A DNA stretch of 64,000 bases from Alicyclobacillus sp. ALC3. Its GTDB lineage: Bacteria; Bacillota; Bacilli; Alicyclobacillales; Alicyclobacillaceae. Each line of letters opens with the position of its first letter. Positions within the stretch are counted from its first letter, which is position 1. The position numbers were made by a program, and so were the translations under genes. This document shows, one piece after another, positions 17,572 to 35,912 of the stretch. The notes beneath the pieces are model-generated. The model saw nothing but the letters and a program-made list of their open reading frames with translations. It was not told the origin of the DNA and ran no database searches. The DNA is taken from contig NZ_CP066784.1 in assembly GCF_028751195.1 (NCBI RefSeq), forward strand, positions 868,001-932,000, written 5' to 3'.

Positions 17572-18882
17572 TCACTCGTTTTCCCTATCTATAGCGGTGA
17601 ATTCTAAAGCCTTGCTGAGCGAAATTTCTTTACTGATATACGCTCTATAAGAAATCATTGCCTCATTCCGGAGGTCGTCTGCGTGCGGGAGGTCTATATG
17701 GTATTTGATATAAAGCGTAGACAGTATTTCACATGCAAGAGCATGTTGTAACTCGTAACAGCTTATTGTTACATCGTATGCTCTGCGGGCACTTGCTATT
17801 TTCTGTTCAGGGGTTGGGAGTATCCCCGAGGCCAATATATACGTCATTGCGATTGTACGGGGGTCATTCGAGAGGTCAGCTGAGTCACAGGCCTGCCGCA
17901 TGTGATGGACGGTAAGGAATGAATTCCCAGTCCCTAAATTCACTCGAGCCAGAATGCTGTGCAACGAGCTTCTTGTCATGTCATCAGTATCTCTCCCCAA
18001 TGCCATCTTGCACCATGTTTCCGCCTCCTTGCTGGCGTTTAACGATTCACAAACGTTGGCCAGGTTGAGCTCCATGCGTGCCAATTGCTGGTCAGTGGAA
18101 CTACACTTCAACATAATCTCATAGGCACCTTCGAATGACTTCTGTGCGTCCGGATGACGACCGAGACGGGATTGAACCGTCCCCAATAGCCCTAATGAAC
18201 TTGCGTACCCCGGGAGGTCGGACAGTTGCAAGAATTCGCTCTTCGACTGTTGGACGTACCACATCGCGGCCCCATAGATGTCCAATTGACAGTATATATA
18301 ACCGAGACTATAGAGCAGTCTCGCCCGCATTCCATTGCTCAGGGAGGACATATTGTGTTCGGCTTGAGATAGGACAGATAATGACTTCGTATTATTGCCC
18401 ATAAACAGGAGTGCAGTTCCGTGGTAATAGAGAAAAATCGGCCCCCAAGTCTCATCCAGTCCATTAATAATGGCAGCCTCCGACAGAAAGCCTAGAGCTT
18501 CATATTGATCCGTGGCATAATAGTGTTCACAGAGTTGTGATGCAAGTTGCAGATGCCCGTTTGTCCAGGCGGTTTTGTTGGACGTGAGGAAACAAGCAAG
18601 TTCTTCATTTTCCTTTGAAGAGAGCAATTCCAAGTCCATGTTGCCTGTTTGTAACATCTCGACGTACGTGTTTAGAATGGGGTCACTTAACCGTTCCGAA
18701 ATGAGTCGCAGTGTTTCAACGCTAGGCAGTTGCCTCCCACTTTCAATCTGGCTCATCATGGATTGCCCAATGATGCCATGAGCTATTCGGGACTGGGATA
18801 GGTGCCTAGTTTGGCGTATCTCATGAATCCGGTGACCAATTATGACTGCGAGTAGGCTCTGACTTGTGTTTATCTTTGACAC
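17572..18882 (-). CDS. HTH-TPR regulator of the RRNPP (peptide-receptor) type
   Basis: 436 residues. An N-terminal Xre-type helix-turn-helix (about residues 10-65; HLSQSRIAHGIIGQSMMSQI, then ESGRQLPSVETLRLISERL) is followed by about 350 residues of helical repeats resembling TPRs, e.g. ARLLYSLGYIYCQLDIYGAA and YASSLGLLGTVQSRLGRHPD. This is the build of NprR, PlcR and Rgg-like receptors that bind a short re-imported peptide. A divergent gene for a 40-residue secreted propeptide starts 21 bases away, making a receptor-signal pair likely. The GTG start has an oddly close ribosome site. Targets are unknown; the RiPP cassettes nearby are candidates by position only. Confidence 0.82.
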   Translation of the reverse strand: MSKINTSQSLLAVIIGHRIHEIRQTRHLSQSRIAHGIIGQSMMSQIESGRQLPSVETLRLISERLSDPILNTYVEMLQTGNMDLELLSSKENEELACFLTSNKTAWTNGHLQLASQLCEHYYATDQYEALGFLSEAAIINGLDETWGPIFLYYHGTALLFMGNNTKSLSVLSQAEHNMSSLSNGMRARLLYSLGYIYCQLDIYGAAMWYVQQSKSEFLQLSDLPGYASSLGLLGTVQSRLGRHPDAQKSFEGAYEIMLKCSSTDQQLARMELNLANVCESLNASKEAETWCKMALGRDTDDMTRSSLHSILARVNLGTGNSFLTVHHMRQACDSADLSNDPRTIAMTYILASGILPTPEQKIASARRAYDVTISCYELQHALACEILSTLYIKYHIDLPHADDLRNEAMISYRAYISKEISLSKALEFTAIDRENE

Positions 18883-18903: not shown

Positions 18904-19026
18904 ATGAAGAAAATTATACCACTGGTGTTAGCTGTTTCAACGGTGCTGTTGTTTGTTGTAGCTATTACTCCTGCGGATAATTCCCTGCCGCCGTTGCCGG
19001 TGAAGGGTATCGTAAAACTATCGTGA
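18904..19026 (+). CDS. Secreted signalling propeptide candidate, 40 residues
   Basis: AAAGGAG seven bases upstream of an ATG opens MKKIIPLVLAVSTVLLFVVA, a clean Sec signal with two lysines and a hydrophobic core. A short tail follows, ITPADNSLPPLPVKGIVKLS, then a TGA and an intrinsic terminator at 19088. Length and layout match Phr/NprX/PapR/SHP-type precursors, whose last 5-10 residues are released and re-imported. It is divergent from the RRNPP receptor gene with only 21 bases between starts, as in rgg-shp pairs. The mature signal would lie in the C-terminal LPVKGIVKLS, which is inference. It is too short for most gene finders. Confidence 0.72.
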   Translation: MKKIIPLVLAVSTVLLFVVAITPADNSLPPLPVKGIVKLS

Positions 19027-19110: not shown

Positions 19111-19158
19111 GCTCACACTCACCACTACGTTTGCAAAAGGAAAGACAAAATAATTTTT

Positions 19159-20201
19159 CATACATATCGACTCTCGTAAGTTGGCCTTGAAAAGTGGGGA
19201 CTGAGTGGTAAACTCGGAACAGGAACAAACGTTCGTGTGCCGAGGTGATACTCATGAATCTCCTGGAATTTGCGCAACGGTTCTCTGATGAGAAATCCTG
19301 TGAGGAACGTCTTATTGAACTGCGATGGAAGGAAGGCTTCACCTGCCCCAAGTGTAATCATCCAGAAGCCATACTGGTTCATGCGACTCACAGGCGTGAC
19401 GCCGACCGCAGAGTTCCGCTGTTCGAGTGCAAACAGTGTCACCGTCAGACTTCCGTCACCTCTGGAACCATCTTTCATAAGACCAAAACGCCGCTCTATA
19501 AGTGGTTCCTAGCGATATACCTGGCTAGCAATGACAAGCGTGGTGTTTCTGCGAAAACACTTCAGCGTCACATTAGCGTCTCCTACGATACGGTTTGGAA
19601 TATGCTCCATAAAATCCGTCATGCGATGGGGGAGCGCAACGCCAAGTACAACTGGAGGGCATCGTTCAAGTCGATGACTTCTACCTTGGTGGTAAAAGCA
19701 AAGGCAAACGGGGACGTGGCACAGCACAGTCACCCATGCTCATGGGCGTTTCACTCAAGAAAGGCAAGCCCCAATACTGTTTTGTTGAAGCAGTTGACGA
19801 CCTGAGCAAAAATTCGATACTGCCTGTTCTACAGCGCAATCTGGGGGCTGATGTCGTCTTAGAAACGGACGGGAATTGGTCGTATGGCACCAGTGCAAAG
19901 GAAATGGATATCCCGCATGTGGTGACGTTGTCCAGTGACGAAAGCGCTCATGAAACGTTCCACTGGGTCGATACTTTGATTAGCAACCTAAAGGCGTTCA
20001 TTGACGGCACATACCATGGACGGGAGCAGTACAAGCAGCTGTACGCTGCCGAATTTACGTACCGATTGAACCGTCGTCATATGGGGCACAACCTCGTAGA
20101 GCGTCTGCTCAAAACCTGCGCGTTGGCACACCCAGTAAATGTTAGCCAAACTGCCTAAGTGGGGGCTCAGCCCAAGTCACTTACGAGACTAGATATGTGG
20201 G
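19159..20201 (+). mobile_element. IS1595-family element, copy A (1,043 bp)
   Basis: It has the same length and ends as copies B and C: left end CATACATATCGACTCTCGTA and right end (complement) beginning CCCACATATCTAGTCTCGTA. Unlike B and C, the 8-mers outside it differ: TAATTTTT on the left and TTTTTTAA on the right. The right one is part of the exporter gene that this copy interrupts. The missing left duplicate means the DNA to the left was swapped after insertion, probably by recombination between copies. Confidence 0.85.
19254..20158 (+). pseudogene. IS1595-family transposase, frameshifted (copy A)
   Basis: The ATG at 19254 follows GAGGTGA. The N-terminus has the transposase zinc ribbon (CPKCNHPEA ... 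CKQCHRQTSVTSGTIFHKTK) and a helical segment to HAMGERNAKYN. The DDE domain (LEGIVQVDDFYLGG, VVLETDGNWSYG, SDESAHETFHWVD) continues in the -1 frame from about 19650. A single lost C in TACAACTGG explains it; no canonical slippery heptamer is present, so programmed frameshifting is less likely. It is identical in all three copies. Confidence 0.82.
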
Positions 20202-20251
20202 TTTTTTAATATGAAGAATAGTGTTCTTACATTAGTCCCATTCATATACAT
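20202..20251 (-). pseudogene. 5' stub of the cassette exporter gene
   Basis: It carries the first 16 codons (MYMNGTNVRTLFFILK) of the ABC exporter that is complete at 27991-29655. Here the gene is cut by IS1595-A at a TTTTTTAA target. Copy 1 therefore lacks its own exporter and the downstream 241-residue protein, and would depend on copy 2 for export. Confidence 0.85.
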
Positions 20252-20282
20252 TCAGCCCCGTCTCGCCGTAAGGGTAGGACTA

Positions 20283-20304
20283 GAGGGTTCCGTGAAGAAC
20301 CCTC
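20283..20304 (-). promoter_or_regulatory. Hairpin between precursor 3 and exporter
   Basis: Perfect 8-bp stem GAGGGTTC/GAACCCTC with a 6-base loop, and no T tract on the minus strand. It sits just after the stop of precursor 3 and may slow or partly stop transcription, or protect the precursor mRNA, favouring peptide over exporter. Confidence 0.6.
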
Positions 20305-20320
20305 CAGAGCAATGCTTGCA

Positions 20321-20479
20321 TTAACCGTAGATATTGCACTGATGCCCCACATTGATAGCACATACGTAAACTTCGCCGCACCCGACATTCGGAGTGCAAT
20401 AATTATATTCACATCCTGCATTCCCATTACAAGCAAGTCTGTCTGGTGACACAGCATCAGAGGGATACAATTCTTCCAT
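20321..20479 (-). CDS. RiPP precursor 3, copy-1 allele (52 aa)
   Basis: Leader MEELYPSDAVSPDRLA, then core CNGNAGCEYNYCTPNVGC and GEVYVCAINVGHQCNIYG. The six cysteines are at 17, 23, 28, 34, 40 and 48. It shares the ExLxxSDxVxPDR leader motif and the GCEYN core motif with precursors 1 and 2. Compared with its twin at 29725-29877, the last half of the core differs by five substitutions and a 2-residue insertion, all altering the protein. GGGGTGACGAT precedes the ATG. Confidence 0.82.
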   Translation of the reverse strand: MEELYPSDAVSPDRLACNGNAGCEYNYCTPNVGCGEVYVCAINVGHQCNIYG

Positions 20480-20547
20480 ATCGTCACCCCACTAGTATAC
20501 GATTGTAGCGGTCTACAGCACCCACTCTGCAACTATGCATTTTAGGA

Positions 20548-20579
20548 ACTAGGCGAGGCTCGCGGTGAGCCCCGCTAGT
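20548..20579 (-). promoter_or_regulatory. Hairpin between precursors 2 and 3
   Basis: A long near-perfect stem (ACTAGGCGAGGCTC pairing with GAGCCCCGCTAGT around a 5-base loop) with no T tract on the minus strand. Probably a stability or attenuation element that sets the ratio of upstream to downstream precursors. Confidence 0.6.
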
Positions 20580-20590
20580 CTCAAAAACAG

Positions 20591-20749
20591 TCAGTTAATG
20601 CCGCAGGCGGTATTGTGTACGTTAACGCCACAAGTGTACTCCTGGGCGCACGCGTTATTGACGTCGCAGGTATTGTACTCACACCCATAGTTGCCTCCAC
20701 ATACAATCCTGTCTGGCTGGACCAAATCGGACGAGTGTAACTCTTGCAT
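20591..20749 (-). CDS. RiPP precursor 2 (52 aa, copy 1)
   Basis: AAAGGAAG precedes the ATG. Leader MQELHSSDLVQPDRIV, core CGGNYGCEYNTCDVNNAC then AQEYTCGVNVHNTACGIN. Cysteines lie at 17, 23, 28, 34, 40 and 49. The first 27 residues are identical to precursor 1, after which the core diverges. It lies 14 bases after precursor 1. The peptide is rich in Gly, Asn and Tyr and has no Lys. Same sequence as 29989-30147. Confidence 0.82.
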   Translation of the reverse strand: MQELHSSDLVQPDRIVCGGNYGCEYNTCDVNNACAQEYTCGVNVHNTACGIN

Positions 20750-20763
20750 ATTCTCACTTCCTT

Positions 20764-20922
20764 TCACGAATGGATGTTACAGCCATTGTATGCATTGTAA
20801 CCACATACGACTTCCTGAGCACATGAATTGTTAGCAACGCAATAATTGTACTCACACCCATAGTTGCCTCCACATACAATCCTGTCTGGCTGGACCAAAT
20901 CTGATGAGTGCAACTCTTGCAA
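20764..20922 (-). CDS. RiPP precursor 1 (52 aa, copy 1)
   Basis: The best start is the TTG at 20922, six bases after AAAGGAGG. A 15-codon extension to an upstream ATG would run through that ribosome site. Leader MQELHSSDLVQPDRIV, core CGGNYGCEYNYCVANNSC then AQEVVCGYNAYNGCNIHS. Cysteines are at 17, 23, 28, 34, 40 and 48, a C-x5-C-x4-C-x5-C-x5-C-x7-C pattern. Such Cys-rich peptides next to a radical SAM/SPASM enzyme are usually thioether-crosslinked (sactipeptide or ranthipeptide types). The crosslink type here is unknown. Same sequence as 30162-30320. Confidence 0.83.
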   Translation of the reverse strand: MQELHSSDLVQPDRIVCGGNYGCEYNYCVANNSCAQEVVCGYNAYNGCNIHS

Positions 20923-20956
20923 ATTCTCACCTCCTTTCCAAAAATCAGATTGTATC

Positions 20957-20984
20957 ATTGTGTGCAATCTGGATTTGAAGTCAA
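20957..20984 (-). promoter_or_regulatory. Candidate internal promoter for the precursor genes (copy 1)
   Basis: TTGACT and CACAAT with 16 bases between, 35 bases upstream of precursor 1, in a 353-base gap after the radical SAM gene. It would allow precursors to be made in excess of the enzyme. The rest of the gap (to 21275) holds no supported gene. Confidence 0.45.
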
Positions 20985-21275
20985 ACCACTAGATAAGCAT
21001 GCACACCAACGCCCCGTTTTCCTTGCTACTATACCGGCCAATTTTGTCCACATCCTAAATACTCATTCAAAACGCATTCAATGCAAAGTTCAGTATCCGA
21101 GAACATTTATCCTCAGATCTGTGGCAAGCAATCGGTCCAACAGAACCACAAACATGCGGTTCTTCCGGAAAGAAGACCACACTTCCGTGGTAGAGGAATT
21201 GAGTCCTTGTTCCCGTGTCTAAAACGTGGTCGGGAGTATTTAATTAGAAGATAATTTGTCAGATGGATGATAAAT

Positions 21276-22619
21276 TCAACAACTTTCTATCAAGTGATTT
21301 GCTGACTCATCTAATGTCCCAGAGAGTTTCTCTTTTATCCATACAGATAACGCCTCATGTAAGCCAAATTTCCACTCCGAACACTCCGGTTCACCGTTTT
21401 CTCTGTTGAACGCCACGTGCGCACATCCCCCCATGCACAATGGCAACACTTTACACTCTCGGCACTTTGAGAACATCATCGGCCCCCAAGAGACCCATTT
21501 GTCAATTGCTTGTTCATTGAACTCCATTCTATTAATATTCCCTACGGCTTGATCCGCTTCATTAATTGTATCCCAGCACTTGTGTAAATCACCGTTAGGT
21601 GCAATCACCCAGAAGTTCGCTTGGGGGACACCGCAGAAGGCACGAATGGCGGCTGGGTAGTTGAGAACGCGTGCACCGTGCACTAGTGCTTCTTTATGAA
21701 GATCAACCTTATCTCTCATGTAGTCTTTTTGTGATTTGTAGGTCTGCTCCCAGGACACGTCACCATCATCCCTCATGACTGCTGGATAGATATACAATTT
21801 CCCTTTCATACCATATTCATCGTTTAATTTACGAACAAGTGGGACGTATGTGTTGCGATTTTCCTTGTCGACGTTGACACGAACAGTTATCGACAAAATG
21901 TCACAGCTTTCCTTTAGATTTGAGACAATTTGCGCAAACGTTGGGTGCCCACCTTTTCTAAACCTGCGTTGATCGTGATGTTCTGGCATTCCATCAAGCG
22001 TGACCTGAGCGGAGACAACACCCAGAGATCTGAGTTTCAAGGCAATTTTTTGTGTCAGTCCATATCCATTAGTAATAATTCCAGCTGAATACTGATTGAT
22101 CTGGTTCGGTATTAGGATTTCTTGTTGTATCAAATCCGTGAGATGTTCGATTTGGGGAAGACCTAGCAGTGGTTCTCCTCCAAACCAAGTGATATTCAAT
22201 CTGTGGGTAGATTCGGTAATCATTGACTTGATGAATGAGATGACCGACCTCATTGTTTTCTCACTCATCCGCAACTTAGGTTTGTCGTCTCCCTCAAAAC
22301 AATAGGGACATCCAAAATTACAATCAATTGTTGGAGCAATCGTAAGGGAAATAACAGATTTGTCGGATGTCACCGACTCTCTCTCCTGCATCAGGGAAGT
22401 ATGCTCATTCAAGTCATCGTCGATTATAAATCCATTCTTTTTCAGAGTGTCAATGTGACTATCCTCGATGTTTGAATCCCACCCTGCGTCACCACACTCC
22501 AATGCTTTTAATGCATCGATTACTTCCCTCTCTACCTTAAACAGTCCGCGATGATAAGCATTGAAGATAAATGATTCTTGGTCTACATCGAAATAGTGAT
22601 TAAAAACCGAAGTTTTCAA
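21276..22619 (-). CDS. Radical SAM/SPASM RiPP maturase (copy 1)
   Basis: 447 residues from the TTG at 22619, which has AAAGGTGGG at proper distance; a GTG at 22631 in the same frame is too close to it. Residues 1-85 look like a PqqD-type precursor-recognition domain. CNFGCPYCFE at about 100 is the radical SAM cluster motif (CxxxCxxC), with WFGGEPLL following. The C-terminal SPASM region binds auxiliary clusters: CGVPQANFW, PNGDLHKCW, CRECKVLPLCMGGC and a last Cys in PECSEW. It is inferred to crosslink the six-Cys precursors encoded directly downstream. The protein is identical to the copy at 30674. Confidence 0.9.
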   Translation of the reverse strand: MKTSVFNHYFDVDQESFIFNAYHRGLFKVEREVIDALKALECGDAGWDSNIEDSHIDTLKKNGFIIDDDLNEHTSLMQERESVTSDKSVISLTIAPTIDCNFGCPYCFEGDDKPKLRMSEKTMRSVISFIKSMITESTHRLNITWFGGEPLLGLPQIEHLTDLIQQEILIPNQINQYSAGIITNGYGLTQKIALKLRSLGVVSAQVTLDGMPEHHDQRRFRKGGHPTFAQIVSNLKESCDILSITVRVNVDKENRNTYVPLVRKLNDEYGMKGKLYIYPAVMRDDGDVSWEQTYKSQKDYMRDKVDLHKEALVHGARVLNYPAAIRAFCGVPQANFWVIAPNGDLHKCWDTINEADQAVGNINRMEFNEQAIDKWVSWGPMMFSKCRECKVLPLCMGGCAHVAFNRENGEPECSEWKFGLHEALSVWIKEKLSGTLDESANHLIESC

Positions 22620-22649
22620 ACCATCCCCCACCTTTCGCTGAATGGTTAT

Positions 22650-22677
22650 ATTGTATTTATTATGAATAGATTTTCAA
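22650..22677 (-). promoter_or_regulatory. Promoter of the RiPP cassette (copy 1)
   Basis: TTGAAA and TACAAT separated by 16 bases, 31 bases before the maturase start, in a very AT-rich leader. The IS91-like element begins only 32 bases further upstream, so more distant control sites were lost or replaced here. Confidence 0.55.
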
Positions 22678-22855
22678 TTCATTTCCTGTATTATTAATAA
22701 ATACTATAGGACTAAACCGCTGCGCGGTGGTAAAAGAGCGTGCCTTCCGTTGACCTGTGCCCGCTGAATTTACTTTCTTTGCATCTTGAGTTCCCTTAAG
22801 ATTCGCGCTATGCAGCCCTATTTCGACTGCAAATGAATCTTGAGGAGAATGTGAG

Positions 22856-23743
22856 ATGGACGAACAAAGACAACGAGTGTTAAAACGGTTGGCAGAGGAT
22901 ATTCGGCTTCGGGGGTTATCGGCGAATACACTGGTGAGCTATACCTCGCATGCACGAATTTTTCTGGAGTTTGCCAGCCGTCGATCCTTGGAACAACTCA
23001 ATACGGAAGATATCCGCCGATTCCTGTTGCACTTAGTCCATGAAAGAAAGTTGTCGCCCGGAACCGTAAACGTCTATAGCGCTGCGATTCGTTTTCTCTT
23101 TGCTGTCACGTTAATTCGCACGCTAAATTACCTCCAAATTCCCCGTCAGAAGAAACGCAAGACACTACCTGAAGTGCTCACCAGAGATGAGGTGCACTCG
23201 ATTCTGGAGGGTTGCCAAAATATCAAACACAAGGCCATGTTGACGGTAATCTATAGTTCAGGGTTGCGGGTCAGTGAGGTTGCAGCCCTCAAAATACAGC
23301 ACATTGATTCGAAAAACAGGCGTCTGTTTGTGCAAAACGGTAAAGGTGGTAAAGACCGCTACACTTTACTGTCAGACGCCTGCCTATACGTCTTGCGTGA
23401 GTACTGGAAGGAATACCGGCCAAGGCACCCCGCGGGGTGGCTGTTTCTTGGCACGTACAATGTGACCCATATTACCCCTGACGCCATCGGAGATGCTTTC
23501 AATAAAGCGGTCCAAAGAGGTCACATTGCCAAACAAGTGTCCATCCACGCACTAAGACATTCCTTCGCCACGCACCTACCGGAAGACGGCGCCACACTGT
23601 TGCAGATCAAATCATTGCTCGGACATGCCAGTGTCCAGTCCACGACAATCTATTTGCATCTAGCGAATATGCCATCTGGTATCGTGAGTCCGCTGGACAG
23701 TCATTCCACAGACGCTCGGTTTGAGGTTTCTTCACATGCCTGA
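22856..23743 (+). CDS. XerC/D-like tyrosine recombinase of the IS91-like element
   Basis: 295 residues. A SAM-like N-terminal domain (LAEDIRLRGLSANTLVSYTS) binds DNA. The catalytic domain has the Arg in SSGLRVSEVAALK, HALRHSFATHL (HxxR), LLGHASVQSTTIYLHL (H plus nucleophilic Tyr). All catalytic residues are present, although HLPEDG replaces the usual HLLExG. It overlaps the HUH transposase gene by 8 bases, so the two were translationally coupled. Confidence 0.88.
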   Translation: MDEQRQRVLKRLAEDIRLRGLSANTLVSYTSHARIFLEFASRRSLEQLNTEDIRRFLLHLVHERKLSPGTVNVYSAAIRFLFAVTLIRTLNYLQIPRQKKRKTLPEVLTRDEVHSILEGCQNIKHKAMLTVIYSSGLRVSEVAALKIQHIDSKNRRLFVQNGKGGKDRYTLLSDACLYVLREYWKEYRPRHPAGWLFLGTYNVTHITPDAIGDAFNKAVQRGHIAKQVSIHALRHSFATHLPEDGATLLQIKSLLGHASVQSTTIYLHLANMPSGIVSPLDSHSTDARFEVSSHA

Positions 23744-24868
23744 ATTACAAGACGTCTTCGCACAGCATGGAGACGCGTATCAAGTCGAACACCGCCTTCC
23801 ACCTGACCAGCAGAAAGTAATTCTTGCGATTCGAAACTGTAGAACTGCTGCGTTAGGCGGACATGTGGATGAATGTGACGAATGTGGATTCGTGCGGATC
23901 TCTTACAATTCGTGTCGTAGTCGTCATTGTCCCAAATGCCAAACGCTCACCAAGGAACGTTGAATTGAGGCTCGAAAAGACGACTTGCTCAATGTTGGCT
24001 ATTTTCATGTCGTGTTTACTCTGCCTGACCTACTAAATTCCGTTGCGTATCAAAATCCCAGGACCATCTACAGCCTTCTCTTCAAGGCGGCAGCCGACAC
24101 CCTGTCCGAACTCGCCGCCGACCCCAAATATTTGGGTGCACAAATTGGTTTCGCAGCAGTCCTCCATACGTGGGGGCAGAACCTGATGCATCATCCGCAT
24201 CTGCACTGCATTGTGCCTGGCGGCGGGCTGAGTTCTAATGGCAGATGGGTGAACTCGAGAAAGAAGTTTTTCATCCCAGTGAAAGTGATGTCTCGGAAAT
24301 TCAGGGGCAAGTTCCTACATTATTTAAGACGGGCCAAACTTGAGTTTTACGGCTCCATCGTGCATTTTCACGAGCAGAGTCAGTTTCAGGATTGGATGTC
24401 TTCTCTGTACCAAAAGGAATGGGTGGTCTATTGCAAACCGCCTTTCAAAAACGCTGGACACGTTGTGGAATACCTTGGGCGCTACACTCACCGTGTGGCT
24501 ATTTCCAATCATCGTATTGTCAATTTGCAAGCGGGAATGGTGACGTTCAAGTGGCGGGACTACAGAGATAACAACCAACAGAAGGAGATGAGTCTCACCG
24601 CGGATGAATTCATCCGTCGTCTTTTGGTTCATGTGTTACCTACCGGATTCACGAGGATTCGGCGCGCTAAAGGCTACTCAGTCCCAGAAATAAAGCAACC
24701 AAGCTGAAACTGTGTAAAAGACTTACTAAGACAGCCGTAAGAATCACTCCACTCCCCAAGCTGTCCGCTCTGGACTTCTTGGAGAAGCTCACTGGCAGAG
24801 ATTTCACCGTTTGTCCTTGCTGCGGTATTGGCCATCTCAGAGCTTCGCCAGAACGAGGAATTGCATAG
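23736..24868 (+). pseudogene. IS91-family HUH transposase, two disabling mutations
   Basis: The N-terminal zinc-binding domain (CDECGFVRISYNSCRSRHCP, CQ) and the catalytic domain (HPHLHCIVPGGGLSSNG with the HUH histidines, then the YLGRYTHRVAISN tyrosine segment) are clear. A TGA at 23961-23963 replaces the expected Trp of the KERWIEAR motif. A frameshift near 24690 displaces the C-terminal tail, which ends CPCCGIGHLR in another frame. The element is probably immobile unless helped in trans. Confidence 0.85.
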
Positions 24869-25123
24869 CCATGCTCGAACGCCTCTTGATTGGGGAGGGG
24901 GAAACTGTGTCCACTTGTCATATTATGCAGCCAATCATCACCTGTTCCCGCCAATTAGCTTCTCTGAACCTGCAACATCGGTTTATCAAGACGCCATGAG
25001 CCTGTTTCTTTCCCCATAGTGGCTAGCGACCGCAGTTTAGTCCAATAGAATTATCCAAAATCGGCGTTCCTTCACGGAATGCCACCTCTTTTTACTCGAT
25101 TTTCGATAATTCTCTATTCATTA

Positions 25124-26166
25124 CCAACATATCTAGTCTCGTAAGTGACTTGGGCTGAGCCCCCACTTAGGCAGTTTGGCTAACATTTATTAGGTGTGCC
25201 AACGCGCAGGTTTTGAGCAGACGCTCTACGAGGTTGTGCCCCATATGACGACGGTTCAATCGGTACGTAAATTCGGCAGCGTACAGCTGCTTGTACTGCT
25301 CCCGTCCATGGTATGTGCCGTCAATGAACGCCTTTAGGTTGCTAATCAAAGTATCGACCCAGTGGAACGTTTCATGAGCGCTTTCGTCACTGGACAACGT
25401 CACCACATGCGGGATATCCATTTCCTTTGCACTGGTGCCATACGACCAATTCCCGTCCGTTTCTAAGACGACATCAGCCCCCAGATTGCGCTGTAGAACA
25501 GGCAGTATCGAATTTTTGCTCAGGTCGTCAACTGCTTCAACAAAACAGTATTGGGGCTTGCCTTTCTTGAGTGAAACGCCCATGAGCATGGGTGACTGTG
25601 CTGTGCCACGTCCCCGTTTGCCTTTGCTTTTACCACCAAGGTAGAAGTCATCGACTTGAACGATGCCCTCCAGTTGTACTTGGCGTTGCGCTCCCCCATC
25701 GCATGACGGATTTTATGGAGCATATTCCAAACCGTATCGTAGGAGACGCTAATGTGACGCTGAAGTGTTTTCGCAGAAACACCACGCTTGTCATTGCTAG
25801 CCAGGTATATCGCTAGGAACCACTTATAGAGCGGCGTTTTGGTCTTATGAAAGATGGTTCCAGAGGTGACGGAAGTCTGACGGTGACACTGTTTGCACTC
25901 GAACAGCGGAACTCTGCGGTCGGCGTCACGCCTGTGAGTCGCACGAACCAGTATGGCTTCTGGATGATTACACTTGGGGCAGGTGAAGCCTTCCTTCCAT
26001 CGCAGTTCAATAAGACGTTCCTCACAGAATTTCTCATCAGAGAACCGTTGCGCAAATTCCAGGAGATTCATGAGTATCACCTCGGCATACGAACGTTTGT
26101 TCCTATTCCGAGTTTACCACTCAGTCCCCACTTTTCACGGCCAACTTACGAGAGTCGATATGTATG
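25124..26166 (-). mobile_element. IS1595-family element, copy B (1,043 bp)
   Basis: Flanked by perfect 8-bp duplications ATTCATTA (25116-25123 and 26167-26174), the family's usual target-site length. It inserted between the right flank of the IS91-like element and a truncated IS66 relic. Its ends match copies A and C. Confidence 0.92.
25167..26071 (-). pseudogene. IS1595-family transposase, frameshifted (copy B)
   Basis: Same gene as in copies A and C with the same -1 frameshift near 25675. It differs by a few residues, e.g. FCEE for SCEE and RATHRR for HATHRR in the zinc-ribbon part and ALAHLIN for ALAHPVN near the end, so this copy is slightly older or from another lineage. Confidence 0.82.
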
Positions 26167-26193
26167 ATTCATTATTATGACGTCGTAATAACT

Positions 26194-26368
26194 GCAGGAT
26201 CTTGACCTTGTCTCGTTGACGATTGCAGAAGACAAAGACACAAGGCGAGAACGGGTCCAACTCAAACCCCTGCTGGACCAGAATAGCCAACCCGTCGATG
26301 GACTTACGCATGTCTGTGTACCCTGTGGCCAGATATACCCGCTGTTCCGCTGTCAGTTCGTTTAACAC
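26194..26368 (-). pseudogene. IS66 TnpB fragment
   Basis: MLNELTAEQRVYLATGYTDM, RKSIDGLAILVQQGFELDPF and CVFVFCNRQRDKVKILQ are unmistakable TnpB. The sequence leaves the family after KILQ, about halfway through the normal length. Confidence 0.85.
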
Positions 26369-27248: not shown

Positions 27249-27974
27249 TTATTCGATAACTGTAACAGAATATCTTTCAGCTAGAACTCTAATAATGTTC
27301 CCCCAGCTTGACTGGGGATTTCCAATTATAACTTTATACATATCGTAGGCTCGCTTGGATTTTTCTCTTAACTCTTCAACAGTTGTCACTTCAGTGATAT
27401 GGGAAGAAGTCACGCAAAAACAATATAGGGTTGCCAGCCTCAAGTCATGAATCACATCAACATCGGATTTATCAACAGGAATGTTCTTTTTAATTACATA
27501 ATACCAAAATCCTCGTGCAATAATTTGTCCCACAGCGGATAAATCTGTGTGCAATCCGGGGAAGCCAAAGCTTAAGAAAATTTCATTGCTCTCTTCGTTT
27601 AGAAATCCAACCCGTCCAACCTGGTGCATCAGCGAGGGAAGTGCTAAGGAGACAACTAAGTTCATTTTTGTTGTCTCTGGTTTTTCACCCCACAGTCTAT
27701 TGGGAAAGTCCCAAATGTATTCAAGTTCCAATGAATGCAAGCCTGACTTATGCAACATCTCATTGTCCGAAAGGGAAAGTTCATGAATATGTCCCAAAGC
27801 TAGGACGAGACCTTCCTTCCCTGACTTGGAGCCTAAAATATTTAACAATTTTAATTGTTCACTTCTATGTACATTTTTAATAATCTCTTTGCGCTCTCTT
27901 AAGAAACTGTACTCGTTGCACCATCCGCACACAAATGTCGCATAATCATATGCACTATAAAAGAGAATTTCCAC
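27249..27974 (-). CDS. Unrecognised 241-residue protein of the RiPP operon
   Basis: The GTG at 27974 (MEILFYSAYDYATFVCGWCN) has AAGGAGAG just upstream, 16 bases past the exporter stop. A longer frame back to 28091 overlaps the exporter and is rejected. No signal peptide and no clear membrane helix. A CGWC motif near residues 14-17 is the only notable element, and most of the rest is helix-prone and mildly acidic. It might be an immunity, sensor or second maturation protein, but nothing in the sequence decides. It is the last gene of the cassette and present only in copy 2. Confidence 0.75.
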   Translation of the reverse strand: MEILFYSAYDYATFVCGWCNEYSFLRERKEIIKNVHRSEQLKLLNILGSKSGKEGLVLALGHIHELSLSDNEMLHKSGLHSLELEYIWDFPNRLWGEKPETTKMNLVVSLALPSLMHQVGRVGFLNEESNEIFLSFGFPGLHTDLSAVGQIIARGFWYYVIKKNIPVDKSDVDVIHDLRLATLYCFCVTSSHITEVTTVEELREKSKRAYDMYKVIIGNPQSSWGNIIRVLAERYSVTVIE

Positions 27975-27990
27975 AAATCTCTCTCCTTGT

Positions 27991-29655
27991 TTAATTGTTA
28001 AGTGCGACCGGTGGCAGACCTTCACCACCGAAACATAGTTCTGAGTCCTTGAACGGAACGAGGACTTGATCTGAAAAACGGATTGTTTCATCCGGACCCC
28101 AGAGGTTAGGGTAGTGGGTTACCGCGACAACTAATCTGAACCTGTCCTTAATGGCTTGAATAATTGTGTCAGGTTTATCAAGACCGGACTCTATTTCGTC
28201 CAAAATGATTACATTAGCATTAGAGAGGAAAGCTCGCGCAAGCCCTATTCTCTTTCTTTGCCCTCCTGACGGGGGGGAGGCCGAAGCGAATTCTTGTTCC
28301 AGGTTAAGTTCCCCAGTCCAACCTAACATCCTTAATAGCTCCTCAATATTCTCACACATTAAATCATGACCCAGTACGATGTTATCGTACAAAGAGCAGT
28401 TAAATACCGGAACATTCTGTGGAACATAGGCTATACCTCCATTCTGTTCGATTGCCTTGTTCCAAGTCACATAACCCTTGTCCAAACGCTGAAGTCCGAC
28501 TAAGCATTTCGTCAAGGTCGATTTCCCTACTCCATTATCCCCCGTCACGATTACAGTCCCTGAGTCAGGAATAGACAAATTTGCTTCCTCTAGTAGCACA
28601 CGTTCCCCAATCTTAACCGTCACATTGTGAAAATCCACTGACGCTACTTTTGAATTTTGCGAGTACGGAAATTTAAATGGTTTAAATTGAATGTGCTCTC
28701 TCAACCTCTCAAGTGAAACCTGTATGGAAGTAAAAACATTTGGTGATTCAGCTGCGACCGATGCAACTCCGCGAATTCTATCAGTGTATAGAACAAACGC
28801 CAATATTTCCGAGACTGAAGTAGTTCCGTGTTTTGAGATCAGGAGTCCAATCAGCACCAAGCCACAAATTGAGCTATAATTCAGTATCTGCTGAACAAGC
28901 GAGAGGTAGCCACGCGCAACTGTAAATTTGACAGTAATTCTGGACAAGTCATTCCACTTATCCTTCGCGTTACTATTCATCCACGACGCTGACGTTGTGG
29001 AGAACAACTTGGTGACTTCAAGTCCTTCAAGTAATGAGCCCACAAATGAAATTGCACTGGCCCTCGAGTTTTTTAATGATTTTTGAATTCTGTAGAATTT
29101 TCTCCTAAAAATAACCGGCATTAATAGGTATAACAGAACGTACCCTATTAAAATTAGACAAAGGATATAGTTGAAGTGATATGATAAAACAATTAGAGTG
29201 ACTATTGCGGACATGATAGACAGTACAATCTCAAATACATTTACAAGATTCACTATGAGGGTAGCAGTATCCTCCATCAGTCTAGTTATGACTTGCCCAC
29301 TAGTGTTCGAATAATCAACAGTTTTCGGTTCGCCGAATGCAATTTGGTTTGTAATCTCGGTCCGCAAGTTAACTGAAATTCTGTTCGCCATTATACTCTT
29401 CGTAATGTTTAGAACAAACGCAGATAATGTGGATATTGTACCAAGAGTCATCACGGTAAGAACCGAGGTAGATATGTTGTTAGCCGGTTCACCTAGGGAA
29501 GTTATCATTGCGGACATGGCAAACGGCAGGTATATAGATGATGCAGAATGTACTGCAAATAAAATGAAGAGTAGCACAAAAGTTCGCCAGTATGGAACGA
29601 AGTGTTTTTTTAATATGAAGAATAGTGTTCTTACATTAGTCCCATTCATATACAT
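27991..29655 (-). CDS. ABC exporter (membrane plus ATPase domains) of the RiPP cassette
   Basis: 554 residues. Six membrane helices in the first ~310 residues, then an ATPase with Walker A GDNGVGKST, Q-loop YVPQNVPVF, signature SPPSGGQRKR, Walker B VIILDEIES and H-loop VVAVTHYP. There is no N-terminal C39 peptidase, so leader removal must be done by another protease. It begins 69 bases after the third precursor stop, past a hairpin. Probably exports the modified peptides as a homodimer. Confidence 0.88.
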   Translation of the reverse strand: MYMNGTNVRTLFFILKKHFVPYWRTFVLLFILFAVHSASSIYLPFAMSAMITSLGEPANNISTSVLTVMTLGTISTLSAFVLNITKSIMANRISVNLRTEITNQIAFGEPKTVDYSNTSGQVITRLMEDTATLIVNLVNVFEIVLSIMSAIVTLIVLSYHFNYILCLILIGYVLLYLLMPVIFRRKFYRIQKSLKNSRASAISFVGSLLEGLEVTKLFSTTSASWMNSNAKDKWNDLSRITVKFTVARGYLSLVQQILNYSSICGLVLIGLLISKHGTTSVSEILAFVLYTDRIRGVASVAAESPNVFTSIQVSLERLREHIQFKPFKFPYSQNSKVASVDFHNVTVKIGERVLLEEANLSIPDSGTVIVTGDNGVGKSTLTKCLVGLQRLDKGYVTWNKAIEQNGGIAYVPQNVPVFNCSLYDNIVLGHDLMCENIEELLRMLGWTGELNLEQEFASASPPSGGQRKRIGLARAFLSNANVIILDEIESGLDKPDTIIQAIKDRFRLVVAVTHYPNLWGPDETIRFSDQVLVPFKDSELCFGGEGLPPVALNN

Positions 29656-29686
29656 TCAGCCCCGTCTCGCCGTAAGGGTAGGACTA

Positions 29687-29708
29687 GAGGGTTCCGTGAA
29701 GAACCCTC
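29687..29708 (-). promoter_or_regulatory. Hairpin between precursor 3 and exporter (copy 2)
   Basis: Same 8-bp perfect stem as at 20283-20304, no T tract. It lies between the precursor stop and the exporter start. Confidence 0.6.
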
Positions 29709-29724
29709 CAGAGCAATGCTTGCA

Positions 29725-29877
29725 TTAACCGTAGACACTGCACTGAGCATTGATAGTACATACGTAAAGGTCGCCGCACCCGACATTCGGAGTGCAATAA
29801 TTATATTCACATCCTGCATTCCCATTACAAGCAAGTCTGTCTGGTGACACAGCATCAGAGGGATACAATTCTTCCAT
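29725..29877 (-). CDS. RiPP precursor 3, copy-2 allele (50 aa)
   Basis: The first 35 residues are identical to the copy-1 allele (leader MEELYPSDAVSPDRLA, core start CNGNAGCEYNYCTPNVGCG). It then reads DLYVCTINAQCSVYG where copy 1 has EVYVCAINVGHQCNIYG. The cysteines are at 17, 23, 28, 34, 40 and 46, so the last loop is two residues shorter. Six base changes plus a 6-base deletion fall within about 50 bases, against a single difference elsewhere in 2.5 kb. Confidence 0.82.
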   Translation of the reverse strand: MEELYPSDAVSPDRLACNGNAGCEYNYCTPNVGCGDLYVCTINAQCSVYG

Positions 29878-29945
29878 ATCGTCACCCCACTAGTATACGA
29901 TTGTAGCGGTCTACAGCACCCACTCTGCAACTATGCATTTTAGGA

Positions 29946-29977
29946 ACTAGGCGAGGCTCGCGGTGAGCCCCGCTAGT
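29946..29977 (-). promoter_or_regulatory. Hairpin between precursors 2 and 3 (copy 2)
   Basis: Same long stem as 20548-20579 (ACTAG ... CTAGT outer pairs). Confidence 0.6.
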
Positions 29978-29988
29978 CTCAAAAACAG

Positions 29989-30147
29989 TCAGTTAATGCC
30001 GCAGGCGGTATTGTGTACGTTAACGCCACAAGTGTACTCCTGGGCGCACGCGTTATTGACGTCGCAGGTATTGTACTCACACCCATAGTTGCCTCCACAT
30101 ACAATCCTGTCTGGCTGGACCAAATCGGACGAGTGTAACTCTTGCAT
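29989..30147 (-). CDS. RiPP precursor 2 (52 aa, copy 2)
   Basis: Identical to 20591-20749: leader MQELHSSDLVQPDRIV and core with cysteines at 17, 23, 28, 34, 40 and 49. The ATG follows AAAGGAAG. It lies 14 bases after precursor 1. Confidence 0.82.
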   Translation of the reverse strand: MQELHSSDLVQPDRIVCGGNYGCEYNTCDVNNACAQEYTCGVNVHNTACGIN

Positions 30148-30161
30148 ATTCTCACTTCCTT

Positions 30162-30320
30162 TCACGAATGGATGTTACAGCCATTGTATGCATTGTAACC
30201 ACATACGACTTCCTGAGCACATGAATTGTTAGCAACGCAATAATTGTACTCACACCCATAGTTGCCTCCACATACAATCCTGTCTGGCTGGACCAAATCT
30301 GATGAGTGCAACTCTTGCAA
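30162..30320 (-). CDS. RiPP precursor 1 (52 aa, copy 2)
   Basis: Identical to 20764-20922: TTG start after AAAGGAGG, core with cysteines at 17, 23, 28, 34, 40 and 48. This is the first precursor of the complete operon. Confidence 0.83.
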   Translation of the reverse strand: MQELHSSDLVQPDRIVCGGNYGCEYNYCVANNSCAQEVVCGYNAYNGCNIHS

Positions 30321-30354
30321 ATTCTCACCTCCTTTCCAAAAATCAGATTGTATC

Positions 30355-30382
30355 ATTGTGTGCAATCTGGATTTGAAGTCAA
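30355..30382 (-). promoter_or_regulatory. Candidate internal promoter for precursor genes (copy 2)
   Basis: TTGACT, 16 bases, CACAAT, as in copy 1. Confidence 0.45.
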
Positions 30383-30673
30383 ACCACTAGATAAGCATGC
30401 ACACCAACGCCCCGTTTTCCTTGCTACTATACCGGCCAATTTTGTCCACATCCTAAATACTCATTCAAAACGCATTCAATGCAAAGTTCAGTATCCGAGA
30501 ACATTTATCCTCAGATCTGTGGCAAGCAATCGGTCCAACAGAACCACAAACATGCGGTTCTTCCGGAAAGAAGACCACACTTCCGTGGTAGAGGAATTGA
30601 GTCCTTGTTCCCGTGTCTAAAACGTGGTCGGGAGTATTTAATTAGAAGATAATTTGTCAGATGGATGATAAAT

Positions 30674-32017
30674 TCAACAACTTTCTATCAAGTGATTTGC
30701 TGACTCATCTAATGTCCCAGAGAGTTTCTCTTTTATCCATACAGATAACGCCTCATGTAAGCCAAATTTCCACTCCGAACACTCCGGTTCACCGTTTTCT
30801 CTGTTGAACGCCACGTGCGCACATCCCCCCATGCACAATGGCAACACTTTACACTCTCGGCACTTTGAGAACATCATCGGCCCCCAAGAGACCCATTTGT
30901 CAATTGCTTGTTCATTGAACTCCATTCTATTAATATTCCCTACGGCTTGATCCGCTTCATTAATTGTATCCCAGCACTTGTGTAAATCACCGTTAGGTGC
31001 AATCACCCAGAAGTTCGCTTGGGGGACACCGCAGAAGGCACGAATGGCGGCTGGGTAGTTGAGAACGCGTGCACCGTGCACTAGTGCTTCTTTATGAAGA
31101 TCAACCTTATCTCTCATGTAGTCTTTTTGTGATTTGTAGGTCTGCTCCCAGGACACGTCACCATCATCCCTCATGACTGCTGGATAGATATACAATTTCC
31201 CTTTCATACCATATTCATCGTTTAATTTACGAACAAGTGGGACGTATGTGTTGCGATTTTCCTTGTCGACGTTGACACGAACAGTTATCGACAAAATGTC
31301 ACAGCTTTCCTTTAGATTTGAGACAATTTGCGCAAACGTTGGGTGCCCACCTTTTCTAAACCTGCGTTGATCGTGATGTTCTGGCATTCCATCAAGCGTG
31401 ACCTGAGCGGAGACAACACCCAGAGATCTGAGTTTCAAGGCAATTTTTTGTGTCAGTCCATATCCATTAGTAATAATTCCAGCTGAATACTGATTGATCT
31501 GGTTCGGTATTAGGATTTCTTGTTGTATCAAATCCGTGAGATGTTCGATTTGGGGAAGACCTAGCAGTGGTTCTCCTCCAAACCAAGTGATATTCAATCT
31601 GTGGGTAGATTCGGTAATCATTGACTTGATGAATGAGATGACCGACCTCATTGTTTTCTCACTCATCCGCAACTTAGGTTTGTCGTCTCCCTCAAAACAA
31701 TAGGGACATCCAAAATTACAATCAATTGTTGGAGCAATCGTAAGGGAAATAACAGATTTGTCGGATGTCACCGACTCTCTCTCCTGCATCAGGGAAGTAT
31801 GCTCATTCAAGTCATCGTCGATTATAAATCCATTCTTTTTCAGAGTGTCAATGTGACTATCCTCGATGTTTGAATCCCACCCTGCGTCACCACACTCCAA
31901 TGCTTTTAATGCATCGATTACTTCCCTCTCTACCTTAAACAGTCCGCGATGATAAGCATTGAAGATAAATGATTCTTGGTCTACATCGAAATAGTGATTA
32001 AAAACCGAAGTTTTCAA
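30674..32017 (-). CDS. Radical SAM/SPASM RiPP maturase (copy 2)
   Basis: The protein is identical to that at 21276-22619: CNFGCPYC radical SAM motif and a full SPASM set of cysteines. TTG start at 32017 with AAAGGTGGG upstream. It is the first gene of the only complete cassette: maturase, three precursors, exporter, unknown protein. Its A+T-rich codon use differs from the GC-rich core genes either side of the accessory region, a sign of horizontal origin. Confidence 0.9.
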   Translation of the reverse strand: MKTSVFNHYFDVDQESFIFNAYHRGLFKVEREVIDALKALECGDAGWDSNIEDSHIDTLKKNGFIIDDDLNEHTSLMQERESVTSDKSVISLTIAPTIDCNFGCPYCFEGDDKPKLRMSEKTMRSVISFIKSMITESTHRLNITWFGGEPLLGLPQIEHLTDLIQQEILIPNQINQYSAGIITNGYGLTQKIALKLRSLGVVSAQVTLDGMPEHHDQRRFRKGGHPTFAQIVSNLKESCDILSITVRVNVDKENRNTYVPLVRKLNDEYGMKGKLYIYPAVMRDDGDVSWEQTYKSQKDYMRDKVDLHKEALVHGARVLNYPAAIRAFCGVPQANFWVIAPNGDLHKCWDTINEADQAVGNINRMEFNEQAIDKWVSWGPMMFSKCRECKVLPLCMGGCAHVAFNRENGEPECSEWKFGLHEALSVWIKEKLSGTLDESANHLIESC

Positions 32018-32047
32018 ACCATCCCCCACCTTTCGCTGAATAGTTAT

Positions 32048-32075
32048 ATTGTATTTATTATGAATAGATTTTCAA
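32048..32075 (-). promoter_or_regulatory. Promoter of the RiPP cassette (copy 2)
   Basis: TTGAAA, 16 bases, TACAAT. Only one base (32042) differs from copy 1 in the surrounding leader. Confidence 0.55.
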
Positions 32076-32145
32076 TTCATTTCCTGTATTATTAATAAAT
32101 ACTATAATACTTGTGCGAAATAGCATTACGCAGCTCAAATACATA

Positions 32146-33188
32146 CATACATATCGACTCTCGTAAGTTGGCCTTGAAAAGTGGGGACTGAGTGGTAAAC
32201 TCGGAACAGGAACAAACGTTCGTGTGCCGAGGTGATACTCATGAATCTCCTGGAATTTGCGCAACGGTTCTCTGATGAGAAATCCTGTGAGGAACGTCTT
32301 ATTGAACTGCGATGGAAGGAAGGCTTCACCTGCCCCAAGTGTAATCATCCAGAAGCCATACTGGTTCATGCGACTCACAGGCGTGACGCCGACCGCAGAG
32401 TTCCGCTGTTCGAGTGCAAACAGTGTCACCGTCAGACTTCCGTCACCTCTGGAACCATCTTTCATAAGACCAAAACGCCGCTCTATAAGTGGTTCCTAGC
32501 GATATACCTGGCTAGCAATGACAAGCGTGGTGTTTCTGCGAAAACACTTCAGCGTCACATTAGCGTCTCCTACGATACGGTTTGGAATATGCTCCATAAA
32601 ATCCGTCATGCGATGGGGGAGCGCAACGCCAAGTACAACTGGAGGGCATCGTTCAAGTCGATGACTTCTACCTTGGTGGTAAAAGCAAAGGCAAACGGGG
32701 ACGTGGCACAGCACAGTCACCCATGCTCATGGGCGTTTCACTCAAGAAAGGCAAGCCCCAATACTGTTTTGTTGAAGCAGTTGACGACCTGAGCAAAAAT
32801 TCGATACTGCCTGTTCTACAGCGCAATCTGGGGGCTGATGTCGTCTTAGAAACGGACGGGAATTGGTCGTATGGCACCAGTGCAAAGGAAATGGATATCC
32901 CGCATGTGGTGACGTTGTCCAGTGACGAAAGCGCTCATGAAACGTTCCACTGGGTCGATACTTTGATTAGCAACCTAAAGGCGTTCATTGACGGCACATA
33001 CCATGGACGGGAGCAGTACAAGCAGCTGTACGCTGCCGAATTTACGTACCGATTGAACCGTCGTCATATGGGGCACAACCTCGTAGAGCGTCTGCTCAAA
33101 ACCTGCGCGTTGGCACACCCAGTAAATGTTAGCCAAACTGCCTAAGTGGGGGCTCAGCCCAAGTCACTTACGAGACTAGATATGAGGG
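32146..33188 (+). mobile_element. IS1595-family element, copy C (1,043 bp)
   Basis: Flanked by 8-bp duplications AATACATA (32138-32145 and 33189-33196). It inserted 39 bases past the right limit of the cassette duplication. The interior looks identical to copy A. Confidence 0.9.
32241..33145 (+). pseudogene. IS1595-family transposase, frameshifted (copy C)
   Basis: Same as copy A, with the -1 frameshift near 32637. Intact zinc ribbon and DDE motifs in two frames. Confidence 0.82.
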
Positions 33189-34951: not shown

Positions 34952-35912
34952 CTACAGTCCCACCTGTATCGCCATCGCCGGGTTGTTCTTCATGCGGTCG
35001 GTGACATGCGCATAAGGGGCTGTCGTCTTAGGTTCGGCGTGTCCGAGCATTTCCTGCACACCGCGCAAATCTTGTGTGTACTTGTATGCCAGTGTGGCAG
35101 CCGTATGGCGTAGAGCATGGTCTGAAATGCCAATGCGCTTGACGTCGGCTTTCTTGAGGTAGAAGTCCACCACTTGCCGAATGCCACGACGCGAGATGCC
35201 ATTGCCACCGGCGCGATTCCCGCACGCAGTGAACATTGGCAGCCCATTGCTGTCTGCGAACGCATCTTTGCGAGTGGCCAGATAGGCACACAAGATGACT
35301 GCGACATCTGGACGCAAGTAGATGACGCGGTCATGGTTCTTGCCTAGGACTAACAACGACGCCGTTCCACCGCTTATCTTGAGGTCATCCACGTTCGCAC
35401 GTTCAATCTCGACCGTCCGCAGGCCTTGAAGCCCCATCATGGCGATGGTGGCCCTGTCTTGAAGGCTTTTCTCATCCGTTCCTTTGCCAATGGCACGAAT
35501 CAAGAGCGTATAATCCACTTCGTTCAAGTAGTGAAAGTCGTCCTGTGCTCGCTTTTCTTTCGGCGGCTTGATGCCTACAGCTGGATTATCAGTGCGCAGA
35601 CCGTTGCCTGCAGTTGCGGCATAAGAAACGGCGAATAATGGTCAGCTTGTGCGCGATGCTGGACGCCTTGTATCCGTTCTGGACCAGGTGCAAACGGTAC
35701 GCCTTCACATAGGCCGGCATTGCGTGTACCGGGTCGATGTCACTTGTGCGGCACCATTCCACCCACTGAGTGACCTGTGTCTTGTATCCCCGAACGGTGT
35801 CCGCTGGTGCATTTCCGTTCGCCACATCCATCCGCAAGAACGCCGCGAACGCATCCGTCAGGCTAGGTTGCGCGCTTGTCACTTGCTGCTCGACAATCAC
35901 CAATTCGTCCAC
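34952..35912 (-). pseudogene. Tyrosine integrase, frameshifted
   Basis: The N-terminal core-binding domain (LTDAFAAFLRMDVANGNAPA, YKASSIAHKLTIIRRFL) is followed by a frameshift near 35615 within FL|YAATAGNGLRTDNPAVG. The catalytic domain (GLQGLRTVEIERANVDDL, DHALRHTAATLAY, MLGHAEPKTTAPYAH) is intact in the next frame. Full length would be about 320 residues. With the broken excisionase it marks a dead integrative element. Confidence 0.82.

Follow-up and report, generated by a model that had tools for sequence, protein, structure and literature searches.

A duplicated cassette for cysteine-rich peptides in Alicyclobacillus sp. ALC3, with a cysteine-to-Asn spacing that may mark thioether sites

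The closest described chemistry for the locus treated here is that of ranthipeptides and related peptides, in which a radical S-adenosylmethionine (SAM) enzyme with a SPASM domain joins a cysteine to an acid or amide side chain. PapB, the enzyme of freyrasin, joins Cys to a downstream Asp or Glu in the motif CX3D at the beta-carbon, and a transposed order of the two residues gave no product (PMC9413430). NxxcB joins Cys to an upstream Asn, also at the beta-carbon (PMC8326336, PMC13361665), and thioether chemistry of ranthipeptide SPASM enzymes on such side chains is treated in PMC11002830 as well. We have analysed a stretch of 64,000 nucleotides from Alicyclobacillus sp. ALC3 (NZ_CP066784.1, positions 868,001 to 932,000 of the forward strand), which as a whole is called the window. 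It holds a cassette for cysteine-rich, ribosomally synthesized and post-translationally modified peptides (RiPPs) that is present twice, and in whose core peptides Asn stands three residues after most cysteines.

The genes, the duplication, the clade of the enzyme, the shared leader and the C-x2-N spacing can be read from the DNA itself. From these we propose that the peptides are recognised by their shared leader, stitched by thioethers from Cys to the Asn at i+3, exported and trimmed, a proposal to which we give an even chance of being right. We read the Cys-to-Asx(i+3) bond (Asx standing for Asn or Asp) as an Asn version of a ranthipeptide-like RiPP.

The cassette and the spacing of its cysteines

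A sequence-only reading by a model had proposed a RiPP cassette at positions 27249-32106 of the window, and all the elements it named are present there on the minus strand: a 451-residue (aa) maturase, precursors of 52, 52 and 50 aa (P1, P2 and P3), a fused ABC exporter of 554 aa and a 241-aa orphan protein. The maturase has the CNFGCPYC motif and the SPASM cysteines. A Shine-Dalgarno-like stretch lies ahead of each of the 50- to 52-aa precursors, whose six cysteines are spaced as had been described, C-x5-C-x4-C-x5-C-x5-C-x7/8/5-C (P1/P2/P3). The leader motif is indeed common to the three, although its form, given as ExLxxSDxVxPDR, should be ELxxSDxVxPDR, the Glu adjoining the Leu. The exporter combines ABC_membrane and ABC_tran domains (with matches to related P-loop families); a C39 peptidase domain, as in self-cleaving exporters of the C39 type, was sought on it at E<=1 and not found, in keeping with that reading. 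The CGWC-bearing protein of 241 aa also stands, with a GTG start at 27974 and AAGGAG ahead of it.

Two features had been overlooked: the duplication of the cassette and the regular placing of Asn at +3 of Cys. A second copy of the maturase and P1-P3 (copy A, the first being copy B) lies at 20202-22708 in the same orientation, and the two are 99.5% identical over 2.5 kb. The genome (two contigs, 5.07 Mb) has only these two maturases (E<=1e-8) and six precursors (E<=0.01). In the four distinct cores that the copies encode, Asn is found at +3 of 17 of the 24 cysteines; at other positions it is found 4 times (+1), not at all (+2) and after 2 of 23 cysteines (+4). C4 is followed by AQE, GD or GE, and C6 has no steady partner. 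Asp takes the +3 place in peptides of another genome, G525, after 19 of 27 cysteines (labels such as G525, L012 or P0003 are our own handles).

Ten groups of precursors were compared with 1000 shuffles per group, counting Asx at +3 at those sites where the +3 residue is not itself Cys. The count lay above all 1000 shuffles in seven of the ten: the window (17/24), G525 (19/27), the Clo7bot peptides of locus L094 (21/52), the CefA type of locus L095 (16/28), L015 (17/20), L029 (14/33) and L014 (7/15). These seven are spread over all three main parts of the maturase tree, and the three failing groups are spread likewise. Thirty SCIFF peptides, the best-scoring ones from 122 genomes with a match, served as the control and have Asx at +3 in 7 of 127 sites, with a peak at +4. 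In these control peptides (L100-L129) Asn stands at +4 of the Cys in a CTVGNQ segment, at 27 of 69 sites. As to sampling, five of the 16 loci L014-L029 met the repeat criterion, of which L027 was dropped (wrong frame) and four were kept; the other eleven had no candidate. A 40-aa Cys-rich open reading frame (ORF; L084:5427-5549) and a Cys-less one (L094:3784-3909) were omitted from the counts, an eighth L094 peptide was counted though annotated only as hypothetical, and the peptides of G788, G537, G718 and L084 were picked from open frames, not from annotated genes.

Several results weigh against a simple rule. The nearest kin of the window precursors, P0002/P0003, are at chance (3/14), and so are L018 (3/22) and four peptides of G788, G537 and G718 (2/25). 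Most weight on this side falls on the failure of these closest relatives; either other acceptors are used there or the rule arose more than once. The window count is post hoc, the rule having first been seen there, and since a group contains paralogues, which do not count as independent, the shuffles overstate the within-group significance; the agreement between groups is the stronger point. In CefA-type repeats, with a Cys every five residues, the +3 residue coincides with -2 of the following Cys and is often Ala, which would suit an alpha-carbon bond equally well. Finally NxxC, the known Asn-thioether motif, is present in the window cores as well (10/20). On the direction of bonding, two observations favour a downstream acceptor: the gap between an Asn and the Cys that follows it is anything from 1 to 5 in the window, and in L029 as in the G525 peptides the final C-x-x-D has no Cys beyond it.

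These points bear on three other chemistries. An unlikely but serious contender is a sactipeptide, whose sulfur-to-alpha-carbon bonds would choose the acceptor by position and not by side chain. The fold of the enzyme would be the same, acceptors from all major residue groups are on record (PMC8326336), and the Ala at +3 in 11 of 28 L095 sites offers no carbonyl side chain. Such bonds would leave aside the preference for Asn or Asp, which beats every shuffle in most groups; moreover, known sactipeptides are described as hairpins with their donors N-terminal (PMC8326336), whereas Cys and Asn alternate in the window, and the maturase is nearer to CteB than to SkfB by sequence and by fold, though few sactisynthase structures exist. 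Improbable, in our view, is a different radical reaction, on Tyr, Asn or Gly for instance, with the cysteines serving as disulfides or metal ligands. SPASM maturases do run many reactions, TigE and SuiB are among the fold matches, and the closest precursors outside the window do not obey the Asn rule; yet the cysteines are the most constant feature among the precursors of the clade, and the best structural match is a thioether-forming enzyme.

It is very improbable that each Cys is joined, as in NxxcA, to the Asn three residues upstream, with C-x2-N as a by-product of the alternation of Cys and Asn. NxxcB is a documented Asn-Cys thioether enzyme (PMC8326336 and PMC13361665), and the Asn at -3 of 10 of 20 cysteines includes C2 and C4 in all four cores. 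The enrichment at -3, however, is significant in at best one of the four cores (p 0.027-0.33 against shuffles), while +3 gives p 0.0008-0.015 over the same cores. In G525, Asp is at -3 of just 1 of 23 cysteines, and the last motifs there have no later Cys to serve.

For thioethers to the downstream Asn, the following course may be pictured. The N-terminal part of the enzyme would bind the short leader common to the three precursors. On the model of NxxcB and PapB, C1, C2, C3 and C5 would then be joined at the beta-carbon to the Asn three residues downstream, while C4 could be joined to a nearby Glu or Asp, or else be left, with C6, as a free thiol or in a disulfide. The modified peptides would leave through the ABC transporter of the cassette, copy A, which has lost its exporter, depending on that of copy B, and a protease would trim the leader after its terminal PDR. 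Loci of the kin carry an Rce1-like or peptidase-like protein nearby; neither is seen beside the window cassette, where the orphan is a candidate for leader removal by its position only. The sole match of the orphan among 5.8 billion proteins was itself, in a search that requires shared five-residue words. Against PDB sequences nothing better than E=0.2 came up, and a single-sequence AlphaFold model, at a predicted local distance difference test (pLDDT) score of 37, gives no usable fold.

The maturase and related loci

The maturase matches PF04055 at 55 bits and the SPASM model TIGR04085 at 53.9 bits (cut-off 27), and its ten Fe-S cysteines are invariant across 18 aligned rows of its clade. The nearest NCBIfam models all score below their cut-offs: TIGR04463, of the CefA type (283 of 525 bits), Clo7bot TIGR04334 (225/600), FlmE/OhkG (208/500) and CefB NF038107 (201/600). 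PapB NF047865 (117.5/340) and the SCIFF maturase TIGR03974 (78.8/425) also fall short, so that membership is reached in none of them, and the enzyme lies outside the Clo7bot branch of L094. The statement of the sequence-only reading that no named family fits is right at the curated cut-offs, but the enzyme adjoins the TIGR04463 and Clo7bot maturases and the Clo7bot locus is similar in layout. The same reading had named kinship to sulfatase-activating enzymes as a ground for abandoning a RiPP; a sulfatase-type maturase is rejected, TIGR03942 scoring 77.2 bits against a cut-off of 349.

The AlphaFold model of the maturase has a pLDDT of 90.6. Its best PDB matches are CteB (5why/5wgg), then TigE and anSME, with SuiB also among the matches. 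The first ~90 residues of the enzyme are strands and helices in the model, which we read as compatible with a leader-binding domain like the RiPP recognition element.

Proteins similar to the maturase at E<=1e-60 number 1556. Among the best 120 of these, 18 besides the window's own score above 400 bits, after which the scores drop to 363 and 318. A tree unites 17 of the 18, the enzyme of L012 and that of the window in a clade of 19 rows, separated from 16 other rows with 100/100 support; a second tree recovers the same clade (100/100) against 23 other rows, among them TIGR04463 enzymes, the maturase of the Clo7bot locus L094 and the CefA-linked one of L095. The trees were drawn without P0015 (the remaining protein above 400 bits), L008, L009 and L010. 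Sequence comparison places the clade next to the named TIGR04463 and Clo7bot families, outside both. It is rare: with the window's own included, it occurs in 3 of 59 genomes of the order (E<=1e-60) and 3 of 398 of the class (E<=1e-55). Two congeneric genomes were searched, one of them 72% complete, and the enzyme was in neither. Viral contigs gave distant enzymes only (best 32% identity), and the eight plasmid records found are all below 60% identity.

The surroundings of clade members were examined at L012, P0003/P0005, G030 and G033. L012 (the metagenome-assembled genome DX2.bin20) has a maturase of 49% identity, one precursor with the leader MNELYPADAASSQPD and seven Cys and, after the precursor, one gene for an Rce1-like membrane protease. 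A profile search with the precursors gave a single 58-aa peptide, P0003 (E=1.6e-8), with a leader nearly that of L012, and P0003 is probably from one contig with P0005, a 51%-identical maturase, the source contig of each being 33,648 bp long and bearing a similar metagenome-assembled-genome label. Thus the radical SAM and SPASM cysteines are accompanied by leader-core precursors kept beside the enzyme in L012 and, if the pairing is right, in P0003/P0005. The RiPP reading holds up here, as intact relatives of the maturase with visible surroundings do adjoin a Cys-rich peptide with a related leader.

Homologous loci lacking the Cys-rich genes had been named as a result that would speak against a RiPP. 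This is what tblastn found at G030 and G033, no precursor lying beside the maturase, which is truncated in both; it is not what is seen at the intact kin, and we read the two cases as decay. Rce1-like genes (PF02517) persist beside the truncated maturases of G030 and G033, three at L088:3788-6889 and at least two at L089:7127-9009, and could encode leader peptidases or immunity proteins.

Leaders start with M-x-E-L-Y-P in P3 of the window, L012 and P0003, and with M-x-x-[LIV]-x-x-P in the precursors of G525, G788, Clo7bot and the CefA type. In G525 four precursors precede the maturase, and genes for an ABC ATPase and a permease lie upstream; the gene after its maturase (L084:8015-8902) has a just-sub-threshold match to a B12-binding domain. 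In G788 the maturase is accompanied by an ABC ATPase, a permease and a Cys-rich peptide. G718 (L087:5536-13108) has three related maturase genes in 8 kb, an ORF of the size of an ABC exporter and a 43-aa Cys-rich ORF, and is a case of maturase duplication in another lineage. A further search for loci of the sister families, in groups of 3, 3, 15 and 17 genomes, added nothing new.

Divergence of the two copies and their surroundings

Copies A and B differ in 13 columns of their ~2.5-kb alignment, and 12 of the 13 fall within 41 columns at the end of P3, the remaining one being a single base upstream of the maturase. The first 35 codons of P3 are the same; then six codon positions differ, one with a six-base indel, and every changed codon alters the peptide while none is a Cys. 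Seven of the eight change events lie inside one stretch of 41 nt, a clustering reached by 0 of 200,000 random placements. P1 and P2 diverge in the same style, with a varying core and a kept leader: as far as EYN (26 codons) they differ in three synonymous codons and the start codon, and over the 21 codons that follow ten amino acids differ. That the differences between the copies are nearly all at the end of P3 suggests that the cassette diversifies its cores with enzyme and leader fixed. The twin copies would then catch peptide diversification at an early stage, one short tract having been altered and the rest kept. Antagonism between strains would fit changing cores, which is our guess.

The variant end of P3 may have another origin: a tract recombined in from an unseen relative, or a difference older than the duplication that survived gene conversion. 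We regard this as evenly poised between true and false. Clustered substitutions and an indel in 41 columns, with one difference elsewhere, form the pattern expected of short-tract exchange, and the genome has no third P3 allele that could have been a donor within it; on the other hand, neither the genome search nor the precursor profile search found a donor sequence. With no third allele in the genome, import of a short tract and local change under selection look alike, and under both it is the core's end that varies. The matter concerns the origin of the P3 variant and is compatible with the proposed RiPP mechanism.

Table 1. Features of the two cassette copies and adjoining insertion sequence (IS) elements, in window coordinates
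Feature	Position	Strand	Basis
Copy B radical SAM/SPASM maturase, 451 aa, GTG start	30674..32029	-	Pfam/NCBIfam, AlphaFold model, PDB match
Copy B precursor P1, 52 aa, TTG start	30162..30320	-	
Copy B precursor P2, 52 aa	29989..30147	-	
Copy B precursor P3B, 50 aa	29725..29877	-	
Fused ABC exporter, 554 aa, without C39 domain	27991..29655	-	
Orphan protein, 241 aa, CGWC near N-terminus, GTG start	27249..27974	-	
Promoter-like TTGAAA-16-TACAAT, upstream of maturase, within duplicated stretch	32048..32075	-	consensus match
Copy A maturase, gene identical to copy B	21276..22631	-	
Copy A precursor P1, identical to copy B	20764..20922	-	
Copy A precursor P2, identical to copy B	20591..20749	-	
Copy A precursor P3A, 52 aa, C-terminal core unlike P3B	20321..20479	-	
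Copy A exporter 5' remnant, ~16 codons, cut at IS	20202..20251	-	repeat boundary
IS1595-family element, copy A edge	19146..20202	+	PF12760, PF12762
Inverted copy of IS1595-family element, between cassettes	25123..26179	-	
IS1595-family copy, 40 bp upstream of copy B	32146..33188	+	direct repeat of 19159-20201, 99.9%

Promoter-like sites were as many in shuffled sequence, so the site in Table 1 is a consensus match only, and an Rfam scan of 16000-36500 gave no match at the gathering score. Between the copies, at 22856-24707, a tyrosine recombinase is followed by a Y2 transposase (PF00589, PF04986), and pieces of IS66 and of integrase are present at 26135-26368 and 34952-35912. At 17572-18882 (minus strand) is the gene of a regulator with helix-turn-helix and tetratricopeptide repeat domains (PF01381, PF13424), and divergent from it that of a 40-aa peptide with a hydrophobic, signal-like stretch (18904-19026, plus strand). 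The two, ~0.1 kb from the IS that borders copy A, resemble a peptide-sensing pair of the RRNPP type and might control the cassette.

The spacing in a wider frame and the named systems

A wider claim, which we make tentatively and hold to be somewhat less than an even bet, is that C-x2-Asx is a substrate code of a superfamily comprising TIGR04463/CefA, Clo7bot, the G525 type and the new clade, with Cys(i)-Asx(i+3) rings formed on Asp or Asn according to family, and that this genome has two copies in which enzyme and leader are kept and the end of one core changes. The shared spacing in most groups examined may be a stitching rule of a largely unstudied group of enzymes. If the rule is true, the map of rings could be read off the sequence for many maturases of unstudied chemistry (the 1556 at E<=1e-60). 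The window would be a good test case, since its variable Asn-to-next-Cys distance separates a downstream from an upstream acceptor.

The Asn spacing at +3 in the window, and the enrichment of Asx there in seven of ten precursor groups of the superfamily, are new here. The open-access literature searched had no mention of Clo7bot, of a Cys at every fifth residue or of three model accessions, and no report of a CX2D/CXXD thioether in a radical SAM RiPP; one review mentions Cys-Asn alongside thioether and radical SAM. As most subscription journals lie outside this coverage, the rule may have been published already.

Among named systems, SCIFF peptides have six Cys in ~50 aa, like those of the window, and the nearest solved structure, CteB, belongs with them; they lack the +3 rule, unlike the window, and the SCIFF precursor model TIGR03973 had no match in the genome. 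Freyrasin (PapA/PapB) and NxxcA/NxxcB are alike in their working: a SPASM enzyme joins Cys over a short range to an acid or amide side chain. The motif of PapA, however, is CX3D, with the acceptor at +4, where the window has Asn or Asp after only 2 of 23 cysteines, and NxxcA has a single upstream Asn, unlike the window. TIGR04463/CefA, on the Methylomagnum plasmid NZ_AP019784.1 (L095), is the top NCBIfam model for the maturase and has Asx at +3 in 16 of 28 sites, but CefA itself is 679 aa long and has a tail of repeats, a Cys at every fifth residue, whereas the window precursors are of ~50 aa.

The four window precursors matched no NCBIfam precursor model at E<=10, and at curated cut-offs the cassette is not a member of any NCBIfam-named system. 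Clo7bot (TIGR04334), on the Paraclostridium bifermentans plasmid NZ_CP079738.1 (L094), differs in that its maturase is 30% identical and in a separate clade, its precursors are more numerous than the three of the window, and a peptidase-like protein, which the window lacks, lies between maturase and exporter. That protein (L094:5334-5954), in which HEFIH occurs and which matches Peptidase_MA below threshold, may be what removes the leader in the Clo7bot system. Clo7bot resembles the window in its tandem Cys-rich precursors (seven annotated), single maturase and fused ABC exporter (570 aa there), in the enrichment of Asn or Asp at +3 of Cys (21/52) and in a comparable leader start, MKFIKKP. In sum, judged by its genes, the cassette is of a known kind, a Cys-rich RiPP with a radical SAM/SPASM maturase, and its layout is nearest to that of Clo7bot.

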